Origin: Nitrospirota bacterium
GTDB lineage: Bacteria; Nitrospirota; Nitrospiria; Nitrospirales; Nitrospiraceae
Reading direction: 5' to 3'
Assembly (NCBI GenBank): GCA_040755395.1
Contig: JBFMAX010000004.1
Location: forward strand, 1-64,000
DNA: 64,000 nt
The translations under genes and the position numbers were made by a program. Numbering within the stretch: position 1 is the first letter of the stretch; each line of letters opens with the position of its first letter. The notes beneath the pieces are model-generated. The model made no database searches. It had not been told where the DNA came from and worked only from the letters and a program-made list of their open reading frames with translations. Below, in pieces: positions 8,311 through 18,447 of the stretch.

Positions 8311-8700
8311 ATGGACAAAGCAAAACGCAAGCGGCTTGAAGCGCGCGGGTGGCGAATCGGGACGGCAAGCGATTTCTTGGGACTGAATCCGGAAGAGACC
8401 GCGGTGGTCGAGATGAAGGTGTGCTTGAGCCAGGCGCTGCGCTCGCGCCGCGAAGCTCGAGGGCTTTCGCAGGTCGCCCTTGCCAAGCGACTGAAGTCGA
8501 GTCAATCGCGAGTGGTGAAGATGGAGGCGGCGGACCAGACCGTTTCGATCGACCTGCTCCTGCGAGGGTTGGTGGTGCTCGGTGCGACGCCGCGGGACAT
8601 TGCGAGGGTCTTGGGGCGCGACTCCGGGGTGGCCGCTTCACGCCCACGTCAGCGGCTCTTTGCATATCCTTCCATCCTTAAGAGCTCCCCCACATTCTGA
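8311..8700 (+). CDS. HigA-like XRE antitoxin
   Basis: From ATG at 8311 (binding site GAGGAGGTG) the product is 129 residues. The first 40 residues (GWRIGTASDFLGLNPEETAVVEMK) are typical of antitoxins paired with Gp49-like toxins. An XRE helix-turn-helix follows (LRSRREARGLSQVALAKRLKSSQSRVVKME). The final 25 residues overlap the convergent nuclease gene and look unrelated to the family, so the natural stop may have been lost. It would neutralise the upstream toxin and repress the operon. Confidence 0.85.
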   Translation: MDKAKRKRLEARGWRIGTASDFLGLNPEETAVVEMKVCLSQALRSRREARGLSQVALAKRLKSSQSRVVKMEAADQTVSIDLLLRGLVVLGATPRDIARVLGRDSGVAASRPRQRLFAYPSILKSSPTF

Positions 8701-9266
8701 TCATTGACGTACACGTCGGCGAGCAGGCGGCCGTAGATATCCCGCCCGTGCGGGACGAGGCGGATCTGCCCGTCCTTAAGAAGCCTGGCCAGGCGTTGCG
8801 TGGCGTCAAAGCCGCCGGTCTCGGTGAGTTCGGGCGTGTCGATCCCTCTGATGCGAATCCGCTCCATGCCGTACCGAATCGTGTCGCCGTCGATCGCCTG
8901 AATGTGCCACGGGTCCAGCAGATAGCCCGGTCCGCCCGTGGCGCTCAAGGCACGATGGGGGAGGGATCGCCGCAGGGATGATCGCGGCGCGCGACTGTGC
9001 CAGCGCAGTTTGCGGTGCGGGCGCCGCCCTTTCTTGATGTGATGTCCGTGCAACGGCGTTCCGGCGGACCGGAGTCGGCGTTGGCTGGGTTGAGTCGGAT
9101 TCCAGCAGAGATCGCAATGGGTGCGCAGGTCGCTTCCTAAGCCTGCCGCGTAGGTGTCTGGTTGCGACGTCGATGAAGGCTGTGGACCGGCCGCGAGAAT
9201 CGACTCAACGGGCTGTAGGAAAATGACCGACAGCCAGACTGCGCGCAAAACGTGTGTGGAGACCAT
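8649..9266 (-). CDS. Secreted thermonuclease-like (SNase) protein
   Basis: The start at 9266 (MVSTHVLRAVWLSVIFLQPVESILAAG) gives a signal peptide and a 205-residue product. The C-terminal 75 residues form a staphylococcal-nuclease domain: AIDGDTIRYGMERIRIRGIDTPEL, then DIYGRLLADVYVNDQNVGELLRMEGYA. The basic, Pro-rich linker (residues 30-110) has no known domain. The Asp and Arg residues of the active site are present, but the usual GxEA acidic residue is replaced by FDA, so activity is uncertain. The 3' end overlaps the antitoxin gene. Confidence 0.75.
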   Translation of the reverse strand: MVSTHVLRAVWLSVIFLQPVESILAAGPQPSSTSQPDTYAAGLGSDLRTHCDLCWNPTQPSQRRLRSAGTPLHGHHIKKGRRPHRKLRWHSRAPRSSLRRSLPHRALSATGGPGYLLDPWHIQAIDGDTIRYGMERIRIRGIDTPELTETGGFDATQRLARLLKDGQIRLVPHGRDIYGRLLADVYVNDQNVGELLRMEGYAKSR

Positions 9267-9374
9267 GGGCGGCTCCGCTCCGTGTGGAATTCCGTCACAT
9301 GCGCGAGACAAGAAGCACAGCCCGTGCCACTCGAAGATTGTGGCCTCCGCTCGGTTGACAAGGGAGAAAACCGC

Positions 9375-9910: not shown

Positions 9911-11194
9911 CTAGAGACTTTTGAAGGCCGCGTGCGCGGCTGCGATTGTTTTCTTGATGTCGGCGTCGGTGTGGGCAGTTGAGAGGAACGCCGCCTCGAA
10001 CTGGGACGGCGCGAAGTAGACGCCCTTCTCCAGCATTCGGCGGAAAAATTTCGCGTAACGCTGCGTGTCCGACTGTTTCGCCGTCGTCCAGTCCACCACC
10101 GGCCCCGCGGTAAAAAACGCGCCCAGCATCGACCCCACCCGCGTTTGCGTCAGCGGCACTCCGGCTTTCCGAGCGGCCTCACCCAAGCCCTCCGCCAGCG
10201 TCGCCGATCGTTCCTCGAGTTTTGAGTACAAGCCGCGCGCCTTGAGCCGAGTCAGCGTCTCGATGCCCGCTGTGACAGCCAGCGGATTCCCCGACAGCGT
10301 CCCGGCCTGATACACCGGCCCGGCCGGCGCGATCAGATCCATGATCTCTTGCTTGCCTCCGTAGGCGCCCACCGGCAATCCTCCGCCGATGATCTTGCCC
10401 AAACAGGTCAGGTCCGGCGTCACCCCGTACAACGTCTGCGCGCCGCCGTAGTGCACGCGGAATCCGGTGATCACTTCATCGAAGATGAGCACGATGCCGT
10501 GTTGCTCCGTCAGGTGTCGCAAGGCCGGGAGGAAATCCTGGCCCGGCGGCACGACACCCATGTTGCCCGCGATCGGCTCGACGATGATACAGGCCAACCG
10601 TTGGTGGTGTTCCCTGACCAGTTGCGTGACTGTTCTGATGTCGTTGTAGGGCGCCGTGAGGGTGTGGCGCGTGAAATCAGCCGGCACCCCTGGCGAATCG
10701 GGAAGGCCCAAGGTCGCCAGACCCGAGCCGGCTTTGGCGAGCAGGTAGTCGCTGTGCCCGTGGTAGCAGCCTTCGAACTTGAGAATCGCGTCCCGTTTCG
10801 TGTAGGCGCGCGCGACGCGGATGGCGCTCATCACCGCTTCGGTGCCGGAGCTGACCAATCGGACTTTCTGCATCGACGGGATCGCCTCGCGGATCATGCG
10901 GGCCAACCGGACCTCCAGCTCGGTCGGCGCGCCGTAGCTGGTGCCGTTCTCGGCGGCTCGCTGAATCGCTTTGATCACCGGGGCCGGGGCATGGCCGAGG
11001 ATCATCGGTCCCCAGGACAGCACGTAGTCGATGAAGCTGTTCCCGTCCACATCATAGAGCCGGCTGCCCTTCGCCCGCTTGATGAAGAGCGGCCGGCCGC
11101 CGACCGAGCGGAAGGCCCGAACCGGGCTGTTCACGCCGCCGGGAATATAGCGTTGCGCTTCGGCAAAGAGCTTCTGGGACTTGGTGGTGTTCAT
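9911..11194 (-). CDS. hemL: Glutamate-1-semialdehyde 2,1-aminomutase
   Basis: The 427-residue PLP enzyme converts glutamate-1-semialdehyde to 5-aminolevulinate in tetrapyrrole synthesis. It is recognised by [15 protein letters not shown] at the start, [41 protein letters not shown] and the PLP lysine in [17 protein letters not shown]. The start at 11194 ([10 protein letters not shown]) is chosen because the longer frame runs into a repeat of GCGAATA/GCCAATA heptamers. The length fits the family. Haem is needed here for abundant cytochromes if the organism is Nitrospira-like. Confidence 0.95.
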
Positions 11195-11448
11195 AGTGAA
11201 CAGCAGGTAGCGAATAGCCAATAGCGTAAGAAAAAAGGCGGTGCAAGGTAACATGCCGCGCGCGAATCGGTCAACGCGTGCTCATGATCGCGTCGCTTCG
11301 AGCGGCATTGCCGGAGGTGCGGGAACGGAGCGGCGGCGGTCAACCGAGCGAGTCACCGATGGTCCGTTGAGCCGCGAAGTGCGCGCCGCCGAGAAAAAAC
11401 GGCTGAGGAAGGGGGCTGGTCCGCGGAAGTCGGGCTCGTGCGAAAATC

Positions 11449-13770
11449 TCAGCGAAGTTCCGTTCCGTGCATCCGGGCGAACAGCTCCCAATCGAACTGC
11501 TTGGGCGCGACGGCGTGCAGAGGAATCGTCTCGATGGTCGCGGGGTCGCGATAGGCCACCATACAGCCGACGATCGACTCCGGCCGTTCCACCAACCGCC
11601 GCACGGTCTCGTATGCCAGATGCTGCGCAATCGCCTTGTCCTCGGGAGTCGGCGGCGCACCCCTCAAGGTATGACCGAGAATCGTCGCTTTGGTCGCGAG
11701 CGTCAGCGGATAGCGGCCGGGTCTTGCCTGACGCTGCGGCCACCGCGCAATCGTGTTCGCGACGTAGTCGACCAGTCCGTGGACGCCTCCCTCCCGTGCA
11801 TGGCGGTGGGGCGTGCGTTCGGCCACCACAAACAGATGGCTCTTGTTCGGCACTCCCAGGGTCCGCTTCAGCGTCCCGAGAATGATGTCATCGATGTAGG
11901 CGTCGGGATCGGGATGCTCGTTCACCAGGACTCCCTCCGCCCTCGCCTGATAGGCGCAGGCCAGCGCGAGGTGACCCGATCCCGCCCCCATCACCTCGAC
12001 GAAAAACACGCTGCCCATCGCCGCGCTGGTCGCCTTCAGCGATTCGATGGACTGGTTCGCCAAGGCGACCGCGGAGTGAAAACCGAGTGACGTGGTGCCC
12101 GCGATGTTGTTGTCGATGGTGCCGGGAATCCCCGCCACCTGCACGCCGAAGGTTTCGTAGATGGCGCGGGCGCCGCGCAGGCTGCCGTCGCCTCCCAGGA
12201 CGACCACGGCGCCGTCCTCCAGGTAGGGTTCGAGGTGGCGCATGGCGGCCACTTGAACCTCTTCGTCCTTGAAATCCTCGAAACGGCTGCTTCCGATCGG
12301 GCTGCTCGCATGACTGCTCATGCCGCGCGTATCCTCTTCCGTGACCGCCTCGATCCAGTTGTTGGCCAGGCCGAGAAATCCATGGCGGACGAAATAAATG
12401 TCGAGTCCCAGGCGGTTCCCGGTCACGCGCAGTTCCTTCAGCGCGGCTCCGGCGCCGGCGAAGTCGCCGCCCGACACCAGCGCGATGAGTCGCTTGAGGC
12501 GTCGCGGCTTCAACGTCACCCGGTCCTTCCGAGCCTGTTCGAGGGAGACCCAGGCGTCCCGCGCGGCGCGCTCGCTTTCCGACAGCCCCACCGCGGTGGA
12601 GTATCCGGAGAGCTGGCCGTTCTCGAACGTCAACAGGACGACGTTATCTTGCCCCTCCTTGTATTCGCCGAACTCGGTGAAGGCCTCGCGGAACGGCCGG
12701 GGGTCGAGGAAAATCCTGAGCGCCCGCAGTGTGGAACTGTGGGTGTACAAGCAGAAGACCGCTCCCGGCCGGGACCGGCCCAAGACATGGAGCCCGTCGA
12801 TGACGTCGAGATAGAGATCGAAGAACGAGTGTCCTCCGGGATGGCTGTAGAAGGGATGCTTGAGGAGTCGCTTGGCGGTGTTTCCATCCACGCTGAACGC
12901 CGTCGCCGCTTCTTCCACTTCGGTTTGCTTGTCCAGTCCGGTCGCCCAGCCGAAATCCTGGGAGTCCAACGCCGGTTCGATCTCGACGCGCGGGCGCTCG
13001 GACACTCCGGGGAGCAGCGCGGCGACGATGCGCTCGCAAAGCTGTTTCGTATTGGGCGTGCTGCTGGTGAGATGGAGAAAGGTGCGCGGATCGAGATAAT
13101 TGTGGAGACGGAGATAGTCCAGTTGCTGGCCCACCACGCCGATCATGCGCGCCAGCGCCGCGCCGACCGCATCCGCCTTCTGCACGCCCCGCTCGGGGTC
13201 CAGCACGTTGGCCAGGCGGCGCCCCACGCGATGCGTTTTGCTCTCGACCCGGGAGATGCCGTGACGCATAGTGAAAAACAGGGTGCGACCGGCCAGGTCA
13301 CGCGGCAGCAACCAGAATCGGTCGTCGCCCAAATCCAGCACGATGCGACCTTCCGCCAGTTGAGGCGTCAAATGCGCGCGCGGAACGATCGCGACAGGCC
13401 GGCGGTGGACGGGCTTCTGAACCGCTCCGATCGGCGCCCGGTAGAGCGGCGCGAGTTCGCCTTCCGCGAGGAGTCGGTTCCAGGCGGCGAACCAGACCAG
13501 TTCATCGCCTCCGCAACTCTGGGCGAGCAGGGCCCTCCGCTCGGCCCGGTAGATCTGGGCGCTGGGGAGGCCGGCTTGCGCGCGCCGGACGAAGGCCCGG
13601 ATGCCGTCCATCGCTTCCCGGACACGCTGTGATCGAGCGGGGGAGGGAACGGGAGGCGGCGGGAGGTCGATGCCCTCGCTCGATGTTCGGCGGGCCAGTG
13701 CCTCCCCGTACCTCAGTAAGCCTTCAACGGTCACGAAGTCCAACTTGTCCGTCGGCGAATTCATGCTCAC
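11449..13770 (-). CDS. Histidine phosphatase - 6-phosphofructokinase fusion
   Basis: The 773-residue protein joins two enzymes. Residues about 160-360 form a histidine-phosphatase domain: TMRHG with the catalytic His170, STPNTKQ, LDSQDFGWATGL, and the second His344 in LYTHSSTLRAL. Residues 425-773 form a phosphofructokinase: SGGDFAGAGA, GGDGSLRGA (526-534) and PGTIDNN (549-555). GGDGS rather than GGDD favours ATP over pyrophosphate as donor. The N-terminal 150 residues are not recognised. The pairing recalls eukaryotic PFK-2/FBPase-2 but uses a PFK-1-type kinase domain. It is divergent from pyruvate kinase, so both lie at a glycolytic locus. Confidence 0.85.
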   Translation of the reverse strand: MSMNSPTDKLDFVTVEGLLRYGEALARRTSSEGIDLPPPPVPSPARSQRVREAMDGIRAFVRRAQAGLPSAQIYRAERRALLAQSCGGDELVWFAAWNRLLAEGELAPLYRAPIGAVQKPVHRRPVAIVPRAHLTPQLAEGRIVLDLGDDRFWLLPRDLAGRTLFFTMRHGISRVESKTHRVGRRLANVLDPERGVQKADAVGAALARMIGVVGQQLDYLRLHNYLDPRTFLHLTSSTPNTKQLCERIVAALLPGVSERPRVEIEPALDSQDFGWATGLDKQTEVEEAATAFSVDGNTAKRLLKHPFYSHPGGHSFFDLYLDVIDGLHVLGRSRPGAVFCLYTHSSTLRALRIFLDPRPFREAFTEFGEYKEGQDNVVLLTFENGQLSGYSTAVGLSESERAARDAWVSLEQARKDRVTLKPRRLKRLIALVSGGDFAGAGAALKELRVTGNRLGLDIYFVRHGFLGLANNWIEAVTEEDTRGMSSHASSPIGSSRFEDFKDEEVQVAAMRHLEPYLEDGAVVVLGGDGSLRGARAIYETFGVQVAGIPGTIDNNIAGTTSLGFHSAVALANQSIESLKATSAAMGSVFFVEVMGAGSGHLALACAYQARAEGVLVNEHPDPDAYIDDIILGTLKRTLGVPNKSHLFVVAERTPHRHAREGGVHGLVDYVANTIARWPQRQARPGRYPLTLATKATILGHTLRGAPPTPEDKAIAQHLAYETVRRLVERPESIVGCMVAYRDPATIETIPLHAVAPKQFDWELFARMHGTELR

Positions 13771-13849
13771 CTCTCCGCCTCGTCAGGAGCCGGCAGGTCT
13801 GGTTTCCTTCGCGCGCCGGGTCATTCGTCGCGCACGAACGGGTGTTCCT

Positions 13850-13878
13850 TTGCGGCGGAAAAGCGCGTTTGCTAGAAT
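13850..13878 (+). promoter_or_regulatory. Sigma-70-type promoter for pyk
   Basis: TTGCGG (13850-13855) and TAGAAT (13873-13878) are separated by exactly 17 bases, about 120 bases upstream of the pyruvate kinase start and pointing at it. Both boxes match the consensus at four of six positions or better. This is the best promoter in the divergent region. Confidence 0.6.
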
Positions 13879-13997
13879 GGCGGCGAGTTGCGACGGGCGC
13901 GGCGACGAATGTTGACGACGCGCCCCCGGACCGCGCCCTTCCGTCTCACCACAAGATGGTCCGCACGATCAATCTTGTCAAGCGGGAAGACCGAGGC

Positions 13998-15461
13998 ATG
14001 CGCAAAGCGAAGATCGTCTGCACCATCGGCCCGGCCAGCGATTCCCCCGCGCTGCTCGATCAGCTCATCGAGAGCGGGATGGACGCCGCGCGGCTGAACT
14101 TCTCGCACGGCAGTCATGAGTCGCATGGGCGCGCCCTTCACGCGGTTCGCGCGGCAGCCGAGCGTCGCCGGGTCGCGGTGGCCGTCATCCTGGATCTCCA
14201 AGGACCGCGGATTCGCGTCGGTGAGCTGGATGACGGTGGGGTGGATGTCGTGCCCGGTCAGCAGGTGATTCTGCAGACCATGCTGTTGCGTTCCGGCGGC
14301 CAGATCGGCGCCCACACCGTCGCGCGGGCGGGAACCCCCGGCGACGTTCCCGAGATACCGGTGACCTACCCCTACCTGGCGCGCGATGTCCAGCCCGGGG
14401 CCCGGATTTTCATCGATGACGGGCTGGTCGAGATGAAGGCGAATCGGATCTCGGGCGGCGCCGTCGAATGTACGGTCGTCGCCGGCGGTCGGATCGCCTC
14501 CCATAAGGGTATCAACCTCCCCGGCACACGGGTCAGCGCTCCGACGCTGACCGACAAGGATCGAGAAGACCTGCGGTTCGGCATCGCGCAGGGGGTGGAT
14601 TACGTGGCGCTCTCGTTCGTGCGGGGGCCGGAAGACATTCTTGACGCAAAGAACCTGATCGCGGACTGCGGCGGCGATCAGCCGGTCATCGCGAAGATCG
14701 AGCGGGCGGAGGCTATCACGGCCCTGGATGCGATTCTGGAGCAAGCCGACGGGGTCATGATCGCGCGCGGCGATCTCGGAGTCGAGATGGGGCCGGAAGC
14801 CGTGCCGGTTCTGCAAAAACGCGTCATCGCGGAAGCGAATGGTCGCCGTCGCCTCGTGATTACCGCGACCCAGATGCTGGAATCCATGACCCACAAGACC
14901 AGGCCGACCAGGGCGGAAGCCTCGGATGTCGCGAACGCCGTCTTTGACGGAACCGATGCCGTGATGCTGTCCGCGGAAACGGCCATCGGACGGTATCCGG
15001 TCGAGGCGGTGCGTGTGATGGATCGCATTATTCGGGCGGCGGAAGAAGGCACCGGGCCGGCGTTCGCGCGTCGGGCCGACGACGGCCGCGGCGAAGTCTC
15101 CTTTCCCGAAGCCATCTGCACGTCGGCGTCGGCGGCCGCCTCCGCGGTGGGCGCCAGCGCCATCGTGGCTTTCAGCGAATTGGGCATGACGGCTCGTCTC
15201 GTCTCCAAGCAGCGTCCGCACGCGCCGATCATCGCCTTTACCCCGTTCGGAGCGGTCCGGCAACGGATGGCGCTCTATTGGGGCGTGATTCCCCACACGA
15301 TGCCGCAGATCAACCAGACCGACGAGCGGGTGAGCGAAGCCGAACGACGGTTAAAGGCGGAAGGGCTCGTCAAAGCCGGGCAGCGGATCGTGATCTTGTC
15401 GGGGACCCAGATCGGCCGGCCCGGCGGGACCAACCTGATGAAATTGCACGAAGTGACGTGA
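13998..15461 (+). CDS. pyk: Pyruvate kinase
   Basis: The enzyme converts phosphoenolpyruvate and ADP to pyruvate and ATP. From ATG at 13998 the product has 487 residues and begins MRKAKIVCTIGPAS, the canonical start. Further signatures are AARLNFSHGSHE, the catalytic IAKIERAEAI, GVMIARGDLGVEMG and TQMLESMTHKTRPTRAEASDVANAVFDG. The C-terminal allosteric domain is present (SASAAASAVGASAIVAFSELGMTARLVSKQRP). A longer frame upstream has no family match. Its divergent partner is the phosphofructokinase fusion. Confidence 0.95.
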   Translation: MRKAKIVCTIGPASDSPALLDQLIESGMDAARLNFSHGSHESHGRALHAVRAAAERRRVAVAVILDLQGPRIRVGELDDGGVDVVPGQQVILQTMLLRSGGQIGAHTVARAGTPGDVPEIPVTYPYLARDVQPGARIFIDDGLVEMKANRISGGAVECTVVAGGRIASHKGINLPGTRVSAPTLTDKDREDLRFGIAQGVDYVALSFVRGPEDILDAKNLIADCGGDQPVIAKIERAEAITALDAILEQADGVMIARGDLGVEMGPEAVPVLQKRVIAEANGRRRLVITATQMLESMTHKTRPTRAEASDVANAVFDGTDAVMLSAETAIGRYPVEAVRVMDRIIRAAEEGTGPAFARRADDGRGEVSFPEAICTSASAAASAVGASAIVAFSELGMTARLVSKQRPHAPIIAFTPFGAVRQRMALYWGVIPHTMPQINQTDERVSEAERRLKAEGLVKAGQRIVILSGTQIGRPGGTNLMKLHEVT

Positions 15462-15598
15462 ACACCGATCGTCAACGGTCAATCGTCATTCGTCAATCGA
15501 TTCAGACCGCGCGCATTCACGATTGACATATGACCAGTGACGGCCGGTGCATCTTGTCGGAATGTCCGCCTGGACCATTGACGAATGACGATTGACGA

Positions 15599-16153
15599 AT
15601 GACGAAACACCGGTGGCTGCGACTCACGATAGTGAGCCTCCTGGGTGTCGTGTTGGCGGCGGGCCCGGGGTTCACCCAGACCGGGTCGATCGCGAATTCG
15701 CCGGCTGAGGTGGTCAAGAAATACCTTTCGCTGGATGCCCGAGGGGCTCGGTTAGACGGCATGTCCTTCGACGCGGTCGTGCCGTACATCGGGTGGAAGG
15801 AAGAACCGGCCTGGGGGCATGTCGTCGTGATCGAGAGCTACGTCGTGCCCGAGCAGTTGAAGCAATGGGAGATCGTCAACATGCTGGAGGTCGTGATTCC
15901 CGTCGAGTTCCGGGTGCTCGGCGCCGTCTACCTGGAGACGGCGTCGTTCATCCCGGAGGACGCGACCGAACAGGTCAAGATCCGAGTCCGGGCGGTGAAG
16001 AACCGCTGGCGGATCGTCGAGCCGATCCTGCCGCCTCACGTGGGGCAGAAGCGCATGCTCAACTTCGTGCGGGAGGCCATCCTGCAGGAATCCGATGCCG
16101 GCCGCCGCGCGCGACTGGCCGCGCTCCGGGACGAATTGCGAAAGGCGAAGTGA
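15599..16153 (+). CDS. Exported protein of unknown function
   Basis: The 184-residue product starts with a signal peptide (MTKHRWLRLTIVSLLGVVLAAGPGFTQT). A mixed alpha/beta domain of about 150 residues follows, with EVVKKYLSLDARGARLDGMSF and KIRVRAVKNRWRIVEPILPPHVG. No catalytic motif is seen. The stop codon is directly followed by the start of the phosphoglycolate phosphatase gene, so the two are co-transcribed. The start lies in a run of TGACGAA heptamer repeats. Confidence 0.7.
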   Translation: MTKHRWLRLTIVSLLGVVLAAGPGFTQTGSIANSPAEVVKKYLSLDARGARLDGMSFDAVVPYIGWKEEPAWGHVVVIESYVVPEQLKQWEIVNMLEVVIPVEFRVLGAVYLETASFIPEDATEQVKIRVRAVKNRWRIVEPILPPHVGQKRMLNFVREAILQESDAGRRARLAALRDELRKAK

Positions 16154-16804
16154 ATGGCCAAGAAAGCGCCGGTTGATCTCCTGATCTTCGACCTGGACGG
16201 GACGCTGATCGAGTCCAAGTGGGACATCGCCCACTCGGTCAACCTCACGCTGGAGGAACTCGGGCTGCCCCGCCGCCCGCAGGAAGAAATCTTCGGGTTC
16301 GTGGGGGACGGCGTCAAGCGCCTGCTGCGGCTGGCGGTCGGCGAGGAGAACCAGGCCGAGTACGAGGAGGCCTTGCGCGTCTTTCGCGGCCATTACCTGG
16401 CGCACTGCCTGGACCGCACCCGGTTTTATCCGGGCGTCGAGACGGCGCTCGCGCATTTCGCCGACAAGCACAAGGCGGTGGCGACCAACAAATCCATGGA
16501 ATACACCAAGGTGATTCTGGACGGGTTGGGGAGCCACCACTTCGCTTATGTGATCGGCGGCGACGACGGCTACGGGCTGAAGCCCGAACCGGGGATGCTG
16601 CTGAAAATCATGGAGGCGTTGCGCGTCCCTCGGGAGCGGACCGTGCTGATCGGCGACAGCACCAACGACATCAACGGCGGGCACAACGCCGGCATCCGCG
16701 TCTGCGCGGTCGGCTACGGGATGGGGAATCGCGAGAAGATGGCGGCCTGCCAACCTGACTGGTTCATCGAACGACCGGAAGAATTGATGGAGATCTTTAT
16801 ATGA
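16154..16804 (+). CDS. gph: HAD-family phosphoglycolate phosphatase
   Basis: The 216-residue HAD hydrolase has motif I FDLDGTL (Asp nucleophile), motif II ATNKS, and motifs III and IV KPEPGM and IGDSTNDINGGHNAG. The cap between motifs I and II is the helical type of phosphoglycolate phosphatases (FVGDGVKRLL is the hallmark). It would remove 2-phosphoglycolate, a by-product of Rubisco or of DNA repair. The start abuts the preceding stop and the end overlaps the next frame by four bases. Confidence 0.85.
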   Translation: MAKKAPVDLLIFDLDGTLIESKWDIAHSVNLTLEELGLPRRPQEEIFGFVGDGVKRLLRLAVGEENQAEYEEALRVFRGHYLAHCLDRTRFYPGVETALAHFADKHKAVATNKSMEYTKVILDGLGSHHFAYVIGGDDGYGLKPEPGMLLKIMEALRVPRERTVLIGDSTNDINGGHNAGIRVCAVGYGMGNREKMAACQPDWFIERPEELMEIFI

Positions 16805-16881
16805 AGAAGAAAACGTTCCTCGTCTCTCGTCTCTCGTCGTTCGTCGCTCCTTCCTTGCGAGATACGCTTTACGCTTCACGT

Positions 16882-18447
16882 ATGACGACGCTAATTTTCG
16901 TCCTGACCCTCGGCCTCAGCCTTAACCTGAGCCTCGATCTGCTGCACGCCGACATGTCCGGGCTGGCGGAGCGGGTCATCGAGCATCAACTCTCGAACGG
17001 CATGAAGGTGCTGATGGTCGAACGGCACCAGACGCCGGTCGTCTCGATCAACCTCACCTTCGGCGTCGGCGGCATGAACGAACACACCGGCCGCACCGGC
17101 GTGGCCCATTTCTATGAACACATGGCCTTCAAAGGCACCAGGAGGGTCGGCACGAAGGATTACGAGAAAGAACGCCCGCTGCTGGAGGAGTTGCATCGGC
17201 TCGGCAGCGAAATCGAGCGGCGGCAGCGGGAAGCGGCGGCGGTGAAAACGTCGGGCAGGAAGGAAGCCGACGGCGCGCCTGCGCTCGATCAGCTCATGCA
17301 GCGATTCCAAGAACTGCAAGACAAGGCCGGCGAGTACGTGGTCGGCAACGAGATGGCGCTGCTGTACCAGCGTCACGGCGCGGTGGGGCTGAACGCCGCC
17401 ACGGGCAAGGACCTCACACGTTACATGGTCAGCCTGCCTTCGAACCGGCTGCCGCTGTGGGCGGCCCTGGAGGCGGACCGCATGGCCCACCCGGTGCTGC
17501 GCGAATTTTATAAGGAACGCAGCGTCGTGATGGAAGAGCGGCGGCTTCGGACGGACGACAATCCCCACGGGCTCTTGTTCGAGGCCTTCACGGCCGCCGC
17601 GTTTCAGGCCCATCCGTACGGACTTCCGACCATCGGGTGGGCGTCGGACATTCAAGCGCTCACGCCCGCGGCGACCGAGGAGTTCTTCAAGACCTATTAT
17701 GGGCCGGCAGGGGCCACGGTCGCCATCGTCGGCGACATCGACCCGAAAGAGGTGATCGATCTGCTCCAACGGACGTTCGGCACCATTCCCCCGACGCCGC
17801 CCCCGCCGCCGGTCGTGACGGTCGAGCCGCAACAGCGCGGCGAACGCCGGGTCGAAGTCGAGTTCGACGCGGAGCCGACGCTGCTGATCGGGTATCACAA
17901 GCCGGGCATCGGGCATCCCGACGATTTCGTCTTCGACGTGATCGACGCGGTGCTGTCGGACGGCGTGACCTCCCGCCTGTACAGCCGTCTGGTGCGGGAC
18001 AAGCGCCTTGCGGTCTCCGTCGTGACGGACACCAATTACCCCGGCGTGCGGGCGCCCAACCTGTTCGTGATCAGCGCCACGCCGTTGGCGCCTCACACCG
18101 CCGCCGAGGTGGAAGCGGCGATTTATGAAGAGTTGGAACGGTTGAAGACCGAGCCGGTGACGCCGCAGGAACTGGAAAAGGTGCTGAACAACCTGGACGC
18201 CTCGCTCGTCCGGTCGCTCCGGTCGAACGGCGGGCTGGCCTCGCAGTTGGCCTTTTATCAGACGGTCGCCGGAGACTGGCGATACGTCATCGAGGCGCGC
18301 GATCGCATCGCCAAGGTGACCCCGGAGGACATTCAGCGGGTGGTGACCCAGTATCTGAAGAAATCCAATCGAACCGTCGCGACGCTGGTCAAGACCCCCG
18401 CCAATCGCAAAGTCGCGGCGAAGGCGGGCGTCGAGGTGAAGCCATGA
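16882..18447 (+). CDS. M16 zinc peptidase, catalytic subunit
   Basis: The 521-residue product has a signal-like N-terminus (MTTLIFVLTLGLSLNLSLDLLHADMSG), then the inverted zinc motif HFYEH with its distant Glu in LEADRM, and the RLYSRLVRDKRLAVSV region of M16 peptidases. An insertion of about 80 charged, coiled-coil-like residues follows HFYEH. The longer frame from 16801 covers CGTCTCT heptamer repeats, so ATG at 16882 is preferred. It forms a pair with the next gene, the usual two-subunit pitrilysin/processing-peptidase arrangement of periplasmic M16B proteases. Confidence 0.88.
   Translation: MTTLIFVLTLGLSLNLSLDLLHADMSGLAERVIEHQLSNGMKVLMVERHQTPVVSINLTFGVGGMNEHTGRTGVAHFYEHMAFKGTRRVGTKDYEKERPLLEELHRLGSEIERRQREAAAVKTSGRKEADGAPALDQLMQRFQELQDKAGEYVVGNEMALLYQRHGAVGLNAATGKDLTRYMVSLPSNRLPLWAALEADRMAHPVLREFYKERSVVMEERRLRTDDNPHGLLFEAFTAAAFQAHPYGLPTIGWASDIQALTPAATEEFFKTYYGPAGATVAIVGDIDPKEVIDLLQRTFGTIPPTPPPPPVVTVEPQQRGERRVEVEFDAEPTLLIGYHKPGIGHPDDFVFDVIDAVLSDGVTSRLYSRLVRDKRLAVSVVTDTNYPGVRAPNLFVISATPLAPHTAAEVEAAIYEELERLKTEPVTPQELEKVLNNLDASLVRSLRSNGGLASQLAFYQTVAGDWRYVIEARDRIAKVTPEDIQRVVTQYLKKSNRTVATLVKTPANRKVAAKAGVEVKP

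Follow-up and report, generated by a model that had tools for sequence, protein, structure and literature searches.

A histidine-phosphatase fold fused to a PFK-A-fold kinase in Nitrospirota: both active sites depart from their families

Introduction

Nitrospira are major nitrite oxidisers, comammox organisms included, and whether they can break down sugar is judged from the presence of genes like that for phosphofructokinase (PFK). Great Lakes Nitrospira were reported to be without PFK (PMC9239080). The window analysed here, a stretch of 64,000 nucleotides from a Nitrospirota bacterium (contig JBFMAX010000004.1), encodes a protein in which a histidine-phosphatase (HP) fold is joined to a PFK fold. 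The locus raises the question of whether one chain both makes and removes a sugar bisphosphate, as an earlier note on this DNA had suggested, or whether the two domains have been turned to another function. No earlier description of an HP-PFK fusion was found in a literature search conducted mostly without subscription papers. The accessible part of the 2025 superfamily review (PMC12203962) lists tandem duplication and a yeast glyoxalase-like fusion, and the HP-PFK fusion is not mentioned there.

Reading frame and domain layout

The fusion of an HP with a PFK-1-type kinase, as first noticed from the sequence, was confirmed. The protein is encoded by a single 773-codon open reading frame (Table 1), PF00365 (PFK) is matched at residues 429-724 with an E value of 5.7e-55, both folds are matched, and the architecture is conserved. 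The ATG at 13764, which gives 771 aa, is likely the start rather than the GTG at 13770, as suggested by an SD-like GAGAGG upstream and by the starts of homologues.

Table 1 Features of the fusion locus and its neighbours.
Feature	Coordinates	Strand	Basis or remark
Whole fusion ORF	11449..13770	-	773 codons counted from GTG
Helical N-terminal region, residues 10-127	13390..13743	-	AlphaFold2 pLDDT mostly >85
HP branch-1 fold, residues 156-401, catalytically degenerate	12568..13305	-	Pfam, structure, alignment
PFK-A fold kinase domain, residues 424-770, ATP-type signatures, altered fructose-6-phosphate site	11461..12501	-	Profile, structure, alignment
Intergenic region between divergent fusion and pyk	13771..13997	.	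ORF starts
Pyruvate kinase (pyk), PF00224, head-to-head neighbour of fusion	13998..15461	+	Pfam, linkage in relatives
Class-III aminotransferase, hemL-like, downstream, same strand	9911..11254	-	Adjacent to fusion in some relatives only

When the full-length window protein was compared with Pfam at E <= 1, no family besides PF00365 was matched. No NCBIfam PFK model reached its curated cut-off for this protein (best subfamily 179.9 bits vs 253), which indicates that the window PFK is atypical. The AlphaFold2 model of the fusion, built with 33 family sequences, has a mean pLDDT of 77.7; most of the first 400 residues exceed 85. The PFK active-site loops (577-619, 636-652 and 691-704) are poorly modelled with pLDDT <50, so the model gives no view of the altered sugar pocket. 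Residues 10-127 matched no family in the Pfam search and are the least conserved part of the fusion (mean conservation 0.70).

Distribution of the fusion

The relatives were scanned with one genome per species across 84,980 species, a scan that reaches close relatives only. It returned 77 distinct fusion loci, nearly all labelled Nitrospirae or Nitrospirota. The carriers are Nitrospira, other Nitrospirales, and Manganitrophus/Troglogloeales; the odd labels 'Nitrosospira' and 'Nitrospinota' look like mislabelled bins. The intact members are collinear and near full length. Since the fusion is encoded at 77 loci and its intact members are near full length, an assembly accident or chance is excluded.

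In a class-level draw of 196 genomes, more than 100 match along nearly all of the 769-position fusion model. In a phylum draw of 118 Nitrospirota genomes, the N-terminal module was found in 17, once each and always in a frame of at least 764 aa; none of the 118 yielded this HP variant outside the fusion. Two candidate split forms were rejected, as L070 breaks off in a stretch of N and L074 is frameshifted within SGGDFAG. Several other split or truncated members sit at contig ends. The plasmids searched held ordinary PFKs only, and nothing was matched in the viral contigs searched.

Two short fusion-like pieces were observed a few kb from an intact fusion. One is in L042 (11908-12132, about 69% identical), and the other, in G261 (contig C44, 4134-4370), matches the C-terminal end of the fusion (691-769, with one TGA). 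Both look like remnants of a tandem duplication.

The phosphatase-fold domain has lost catalytic residues

PF00300 (His_Phos_1) is sub-threshold in the window protein itself (E 0.052), and it matches the N-terminal half in 30 of 31 family members, with a best E value of 1.1e-6. Among PDB sequences, the N-terminal half returned no more than a marginal match to PhoE (E 1.3), so the HP assignment rests on Pfam across the family and on structure. When modelled alone with AlphaFold2, the N-terminal half reached a pLDDT of 84.7. Model residues 162-401 were aligned with HP enzymes at a VIA Z of about 17 and an rmsd of 2.4-2.8 over about 197 residues (4ij6, Z 17.4, 197 residues, 2.8 A; 1h2e, Z 17.1; 1e59, Z 16.5). 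TIGAR, a fructose-2,6-bisphosphatase, was the first Foldseek match of the HP part, and the top rows were close together.

The common core of the HP superfamily consists of two Arg and two His. Residues were counted in 68 near-full-length fusion sequences, the window protein included. R169, H170 and G171 (RHG) and the second His, H344, are kept in 68/68. Asn240 takes the place of the second catalytic Arg in 68/68, Ser270 that of the acid Glu in 67/68, and Glu or Asp176 that of the Asn six residues past the nucleophile in 68/68; the Glu of RHGE is mostly hydrophobic. In the reference HPs (18 ordinary ones from related genomes and E. coli GpmA), the Arg, the Glu and the Asn are each present in 19/19. 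Compared with HP branch 1 (PF00300: PhoE, PspA, phosphoglycerate mutase and TIGAR), the fusion thus shares the fold, the RHG and the second His, but differs in having Asn for the second Arg, Ser for Glu and Glu/Asp for Asn, and the window protein falls below the Pfam cut-off.

The placement of Ser270 on the Glu was obtained by profile-profile alignment of the whole domain with the 19 HPs (P 3e-4), in which the Arg region aligned loosely. The Arg was therefore assigned to Asn240 by the ungapped register after strand beta2 (232-235 in the model), together with the finding that neither candidate column holds an invariant Arg, the alternative column 242 included. The residues of the E. coli GpmA and PfkA references are borne out independently by the 18 HPs and about 50 distinct Nitrospirota PFKs.

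The earlier note had read a complete-looking phosphatase from the motifs RHG, LDSQDFG and THSSTLRAL. The RHG and the His of THSSTLRAL are present as described, but LDSQDFG has Ser for the catalytic Glu and the second catalytic Arg is Asn, so the domain is not complete. At the level of sequence and secondary structure, catalytic residues are missing. Because the second Arg, the acid Glu and the conserved Asn are replaced, ordinary phosphohistidine catalysis is not predicted for this domain. Both catalytic His and the Arg of RHG are invariant, and a residual or altered phosphatase or phosphotransfer chemistry could be retained. The HP part is strongly conserved (mean conservation 0.81 vs 0.86 in the PFK part), which indicates selection on its pocket even though this is not of the standard catalytic kind.

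The kinase keeps its donor site and changes its sugar site

Kinase residues are given in E. coli PfkA numbering unless a fusion position is stated. Residues 424-770 were matched to 1pfk with a VIA Z of 27.2 over 250 residues, which covers the two-domain PFK fold. The kinase half is thus of the PFK-1 (PFK-A) fold and not PFK-2, as the earlier note had stated, although the altered kinase site was overlooked there. Gly11, Thr/Ser125 and Met169 are kept in the fusion, as are Arg72, Asp103, Gly104, Gly108, Gly124, Asp127, Glu222, His249 and Arg252, which are invariant across the fusion family. The ATP-type donor positions (GGDG, the Gly before TID and the Gly at 108) are the invariant G529, G550 and G533. 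The rule of three donor-specificity positions for the ATP type is given in PMC12203962.

The catalytic base Asp127 is kept in 68/68 fusions. Asp129 is Asn (N555) in 67/68, so that the fusion motif is PGTIDNN vs the PFK consensus P(G/K)TIDxD. Arg162 is Ser or Thr (S/T587) in all 68, Arg171 is Ala (A596) in 68/68, and Arg243 is Lys (K694) in all fusion members with data. These changes are confined to residues that serve the acceptor, the metal or the transition state. Asp129 contacts the Mg2+ cofactor (PMC10339645), and Arg162' binds the phosphate of fructose-6-phosphate (F6P; PMC12203962). The F6P phosphate clamp is incomplete, with Arg162' and Arg243' replaced and His249 and Arg252 kept. The F6P site and Asp127 are highly conserved across PFK-A (PMC11609450). 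Among non-fused Nitrospirota PFKs, 53/53 rows, about 50 of them distinct, keep Asp129, Arg162 and Arg171, and 11 short or medium PFKs of the same class keep Asp129 and Arg162, with Arg171 being Lys or His in two.

The short ATP-type PFK-A of E. coli (1PFK) is therefore like the fusion in fold, ATP-donor residues, Asp127, Glu222, His249 and Arg252. It differs at the four replaced positions, and the fusion has about 420 extra N-terminal residues and a very long phylogenetic stem. In the maximum-likelihood tree, the fused PFKs form one clade with a stem of 4.55 changes per site; the clade is placed weakly near E. coli PfkA, and long-branch attraction is possible. The fusions share a conserved TPHRHH-GG stretch following Glu222 that E. 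coli PfkA lacks.

Gene neighbourhood

The pyruvate kinase said to face the fusion is indeed present, as a PF00224 gene arranged head-to-head with a gap of about 230 bp between the starts. The scan of the intergenic region for a promoter gave no sigma-70-type consensus. Most Nitrospira loci show this divergent pair of pyruvate kinase and fusion, and the linkage holds in most Nitrospirales loci; the fusion members inspected outside Nitrospirales are without it. In several other Nitrospirales loci, a pyruvate kinase only about 35% identical to that of Nitrospira adjoins the fusion or sits within a few kb; loci with this neighbour are L028, L035, L036, L040, L042, L043, L045, L063, L070 and L076. 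The link is thus kept despite the differing pyruvate kinase type. The hemL-like gene downstream is presumably a glutamate-1-semialdehyde aminotransferase.

Other sugar-phosphate enzymes in the carrier genomes

A second, canonical-type PFK is held by 13 of the 17 fusion genomes of the phylum draw. It belongs to the 410-465-aa class and is of the PPi type (Asp104, Lys124) in those sampled. In the other 4/17, the window's genome included, the fusion is the sole PFK-A protein, and it could serve as the glycolytic PFK there. Among same-family genomes without the fusion, four have the second PFK only and two have neither. Outside the family, the fusion occurs alongside a canonical short PFK, for example in G141, G144 and G148.

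The PPi-type PFK is patchy within the family (G000 compared with G055, G085, G094 and others), where fusion with PPi-type PFK, fusion only, PPi-type PFK only and neither are all observed.

The window's genome contains a class I FBPase gene, a DeoC/LacD-type aldolase-family gene (PF01791) about 0.7 kb from it on the same contig, its own gpmA-like gene and glucan-phosphorylase-family genes. It also has six PfkB-family genes, so a PfkB-type PFK may be present.

Function of the fused protein

The fusion probably works as a kinase that has been repurposed or regulates itself, rather than as a maker and breaker of a sugar bisphosphate. The ATP and base residues are kept, the phosphate clamp is changed, and the HP pocket is conserved but its catalytic residues are exchanged. 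These data are best fitted by a kinase of the PFK fold that depends on ATP, has an altered sugar site and is regulated by an HP-fold domain that senses without catalysing, a tentative reading to which we assign a probability of about 0.48. The kinase would be active and ATP-using, and its acceptor pocket would lack the standard F6P phosphate clamp; the acceptor may be a compound other than F6P, or F6P may be bound differently. The HP domain would no longer hydrolyse phosphate by the superfamily mechanism and would act as a ligand-binding regulatory domain, which may sense a phosphometabolite and control the kinase. Together with the pyruvate kinase, the fusion may tune carbon flow between gluconeogenesis and the use of storage sugar. 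The second suggestion of the earlier note, that the phosphatase part serves as a sensor, is compatible with these results.

A narrower version, in which the PFK-A fold has been adapted to a non-F6P acceptor and is switched by an HP pocket turned ligand or metal sensor, is somewhat doubtful. The converted pocket would consist of the two His and the newly invariant Glu/Asp, with the Arg lost. If it is true, the annotation 'phosphofructokinase' is wrong for some Nitrospira, and upper glycolysis in them would run via the PPi-type PFK or a PfkB-type enzyme, or be absent. Where the fusion is the sole PFK-A gene, as in the window's genome, any pathway call based on it is wrong if the protein does not act as a 6-phosphofructokinase. 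In that case it would be an uncommon departure in a kinase family with a highly conserved F6P site, and nature would have paired two remodelled active sites within a single chain.

The main rival is that the whole protein is a pseudoenzyme, with both domains binding metabolites, neither being catalytic, and the protein regulating another enzyme, such as the pyruvate kinase encoded next to it or the PPi-type PFK. The loss of canonical residues from both sites, the conserved pyk linkage and the canonical PFK in most sampled fusion genomes all agree with it, and Asn in place of Asp129 is reminiscent of the C-half of mammalian PFK, which is non-catalytic (human PFKL has 'NN' there in the alignment). 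We nevertheless consider it unlikely. A dead site would have no need to keep Asp127, the GGDG donor motif, Glu222 and Arg252, yet all are invariant in the fusion family, and the window's genome retains the aldolase-family gene and pyk although it has no other PFK-A gene.

It is less likely, and rated as improbable, that the protein is a usual ATP-dependent 6-phosphofructokinase to which a regulatory N-terminal part has been added. The substitutions would have to be tolerated, with Lys694 standing in for Arg243 and another residue for Arg162. Against this, Arg162 is lost in all fusions and kept in every non-fused and same-class PFK compared, and the Mg2+ cofactor residue is replaced in all fusions except one. 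What speaks for it is the PFK-A fold with ATP-type signatures, the place beside pyruvate kinase expected of a glycolytic PFK, and the lack of any other PFK-A gene in four genomes of the phylum draw, the window's included.

A bifunctional enzyme that makes and removes a sugar bisphosphate, PFKFB-like but built on a PFK-A kinase, is very improbable, since the fused folds, the invariant RHG and second His and the leading TIGAR match are outweighed by the essentially family-wide absence of the second catalytic Arg and the acid Glu, the conserved Asn turned acidic, a kinase pocket without two F6P-phosphate ligands, and a separate class I FBPase gene in the genome.

Comparison with other fused kinases

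Eukaryotic PFKFB (PFK-2/FBPase-2) likewise combines a kinase for sugar phosphates with an HP domain on a single polypeptide. Its kinase is a P-loop PFK-2 at the N terminus followed by a C-terminal HP, whereas the fusion kinase has the unrelated PFK-A fold and is C-terminal, and the HP residues of the fusion are not catalytically competent by the usual criteria. A PGG-S stretch after the acid motif of the fusion presumably resembles PFKFB. The yeast PFK, as described in PMC12203962, is also of the PFK-A family and carries an additional N-terminal domain that derives from an enzyme, but the added fold is glyoxalase-I-like and the PFK is of the eukaryotic duplicated form.

Further observations in the window

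The genes at 13998-18447 encode the pyruvate kinase, a 184-aa protein without a Pfam family, a HAD phosphatase (phosphoglycolate-phosphatase-like) and an M16 peptidase, and this order beside the fusion is conserved in many Nitrospira. An ORF at 8649-9311 on the reverse strand carries a C-terminal staphylococcal-nuclease-like domain (PF00565, E 9e-9).
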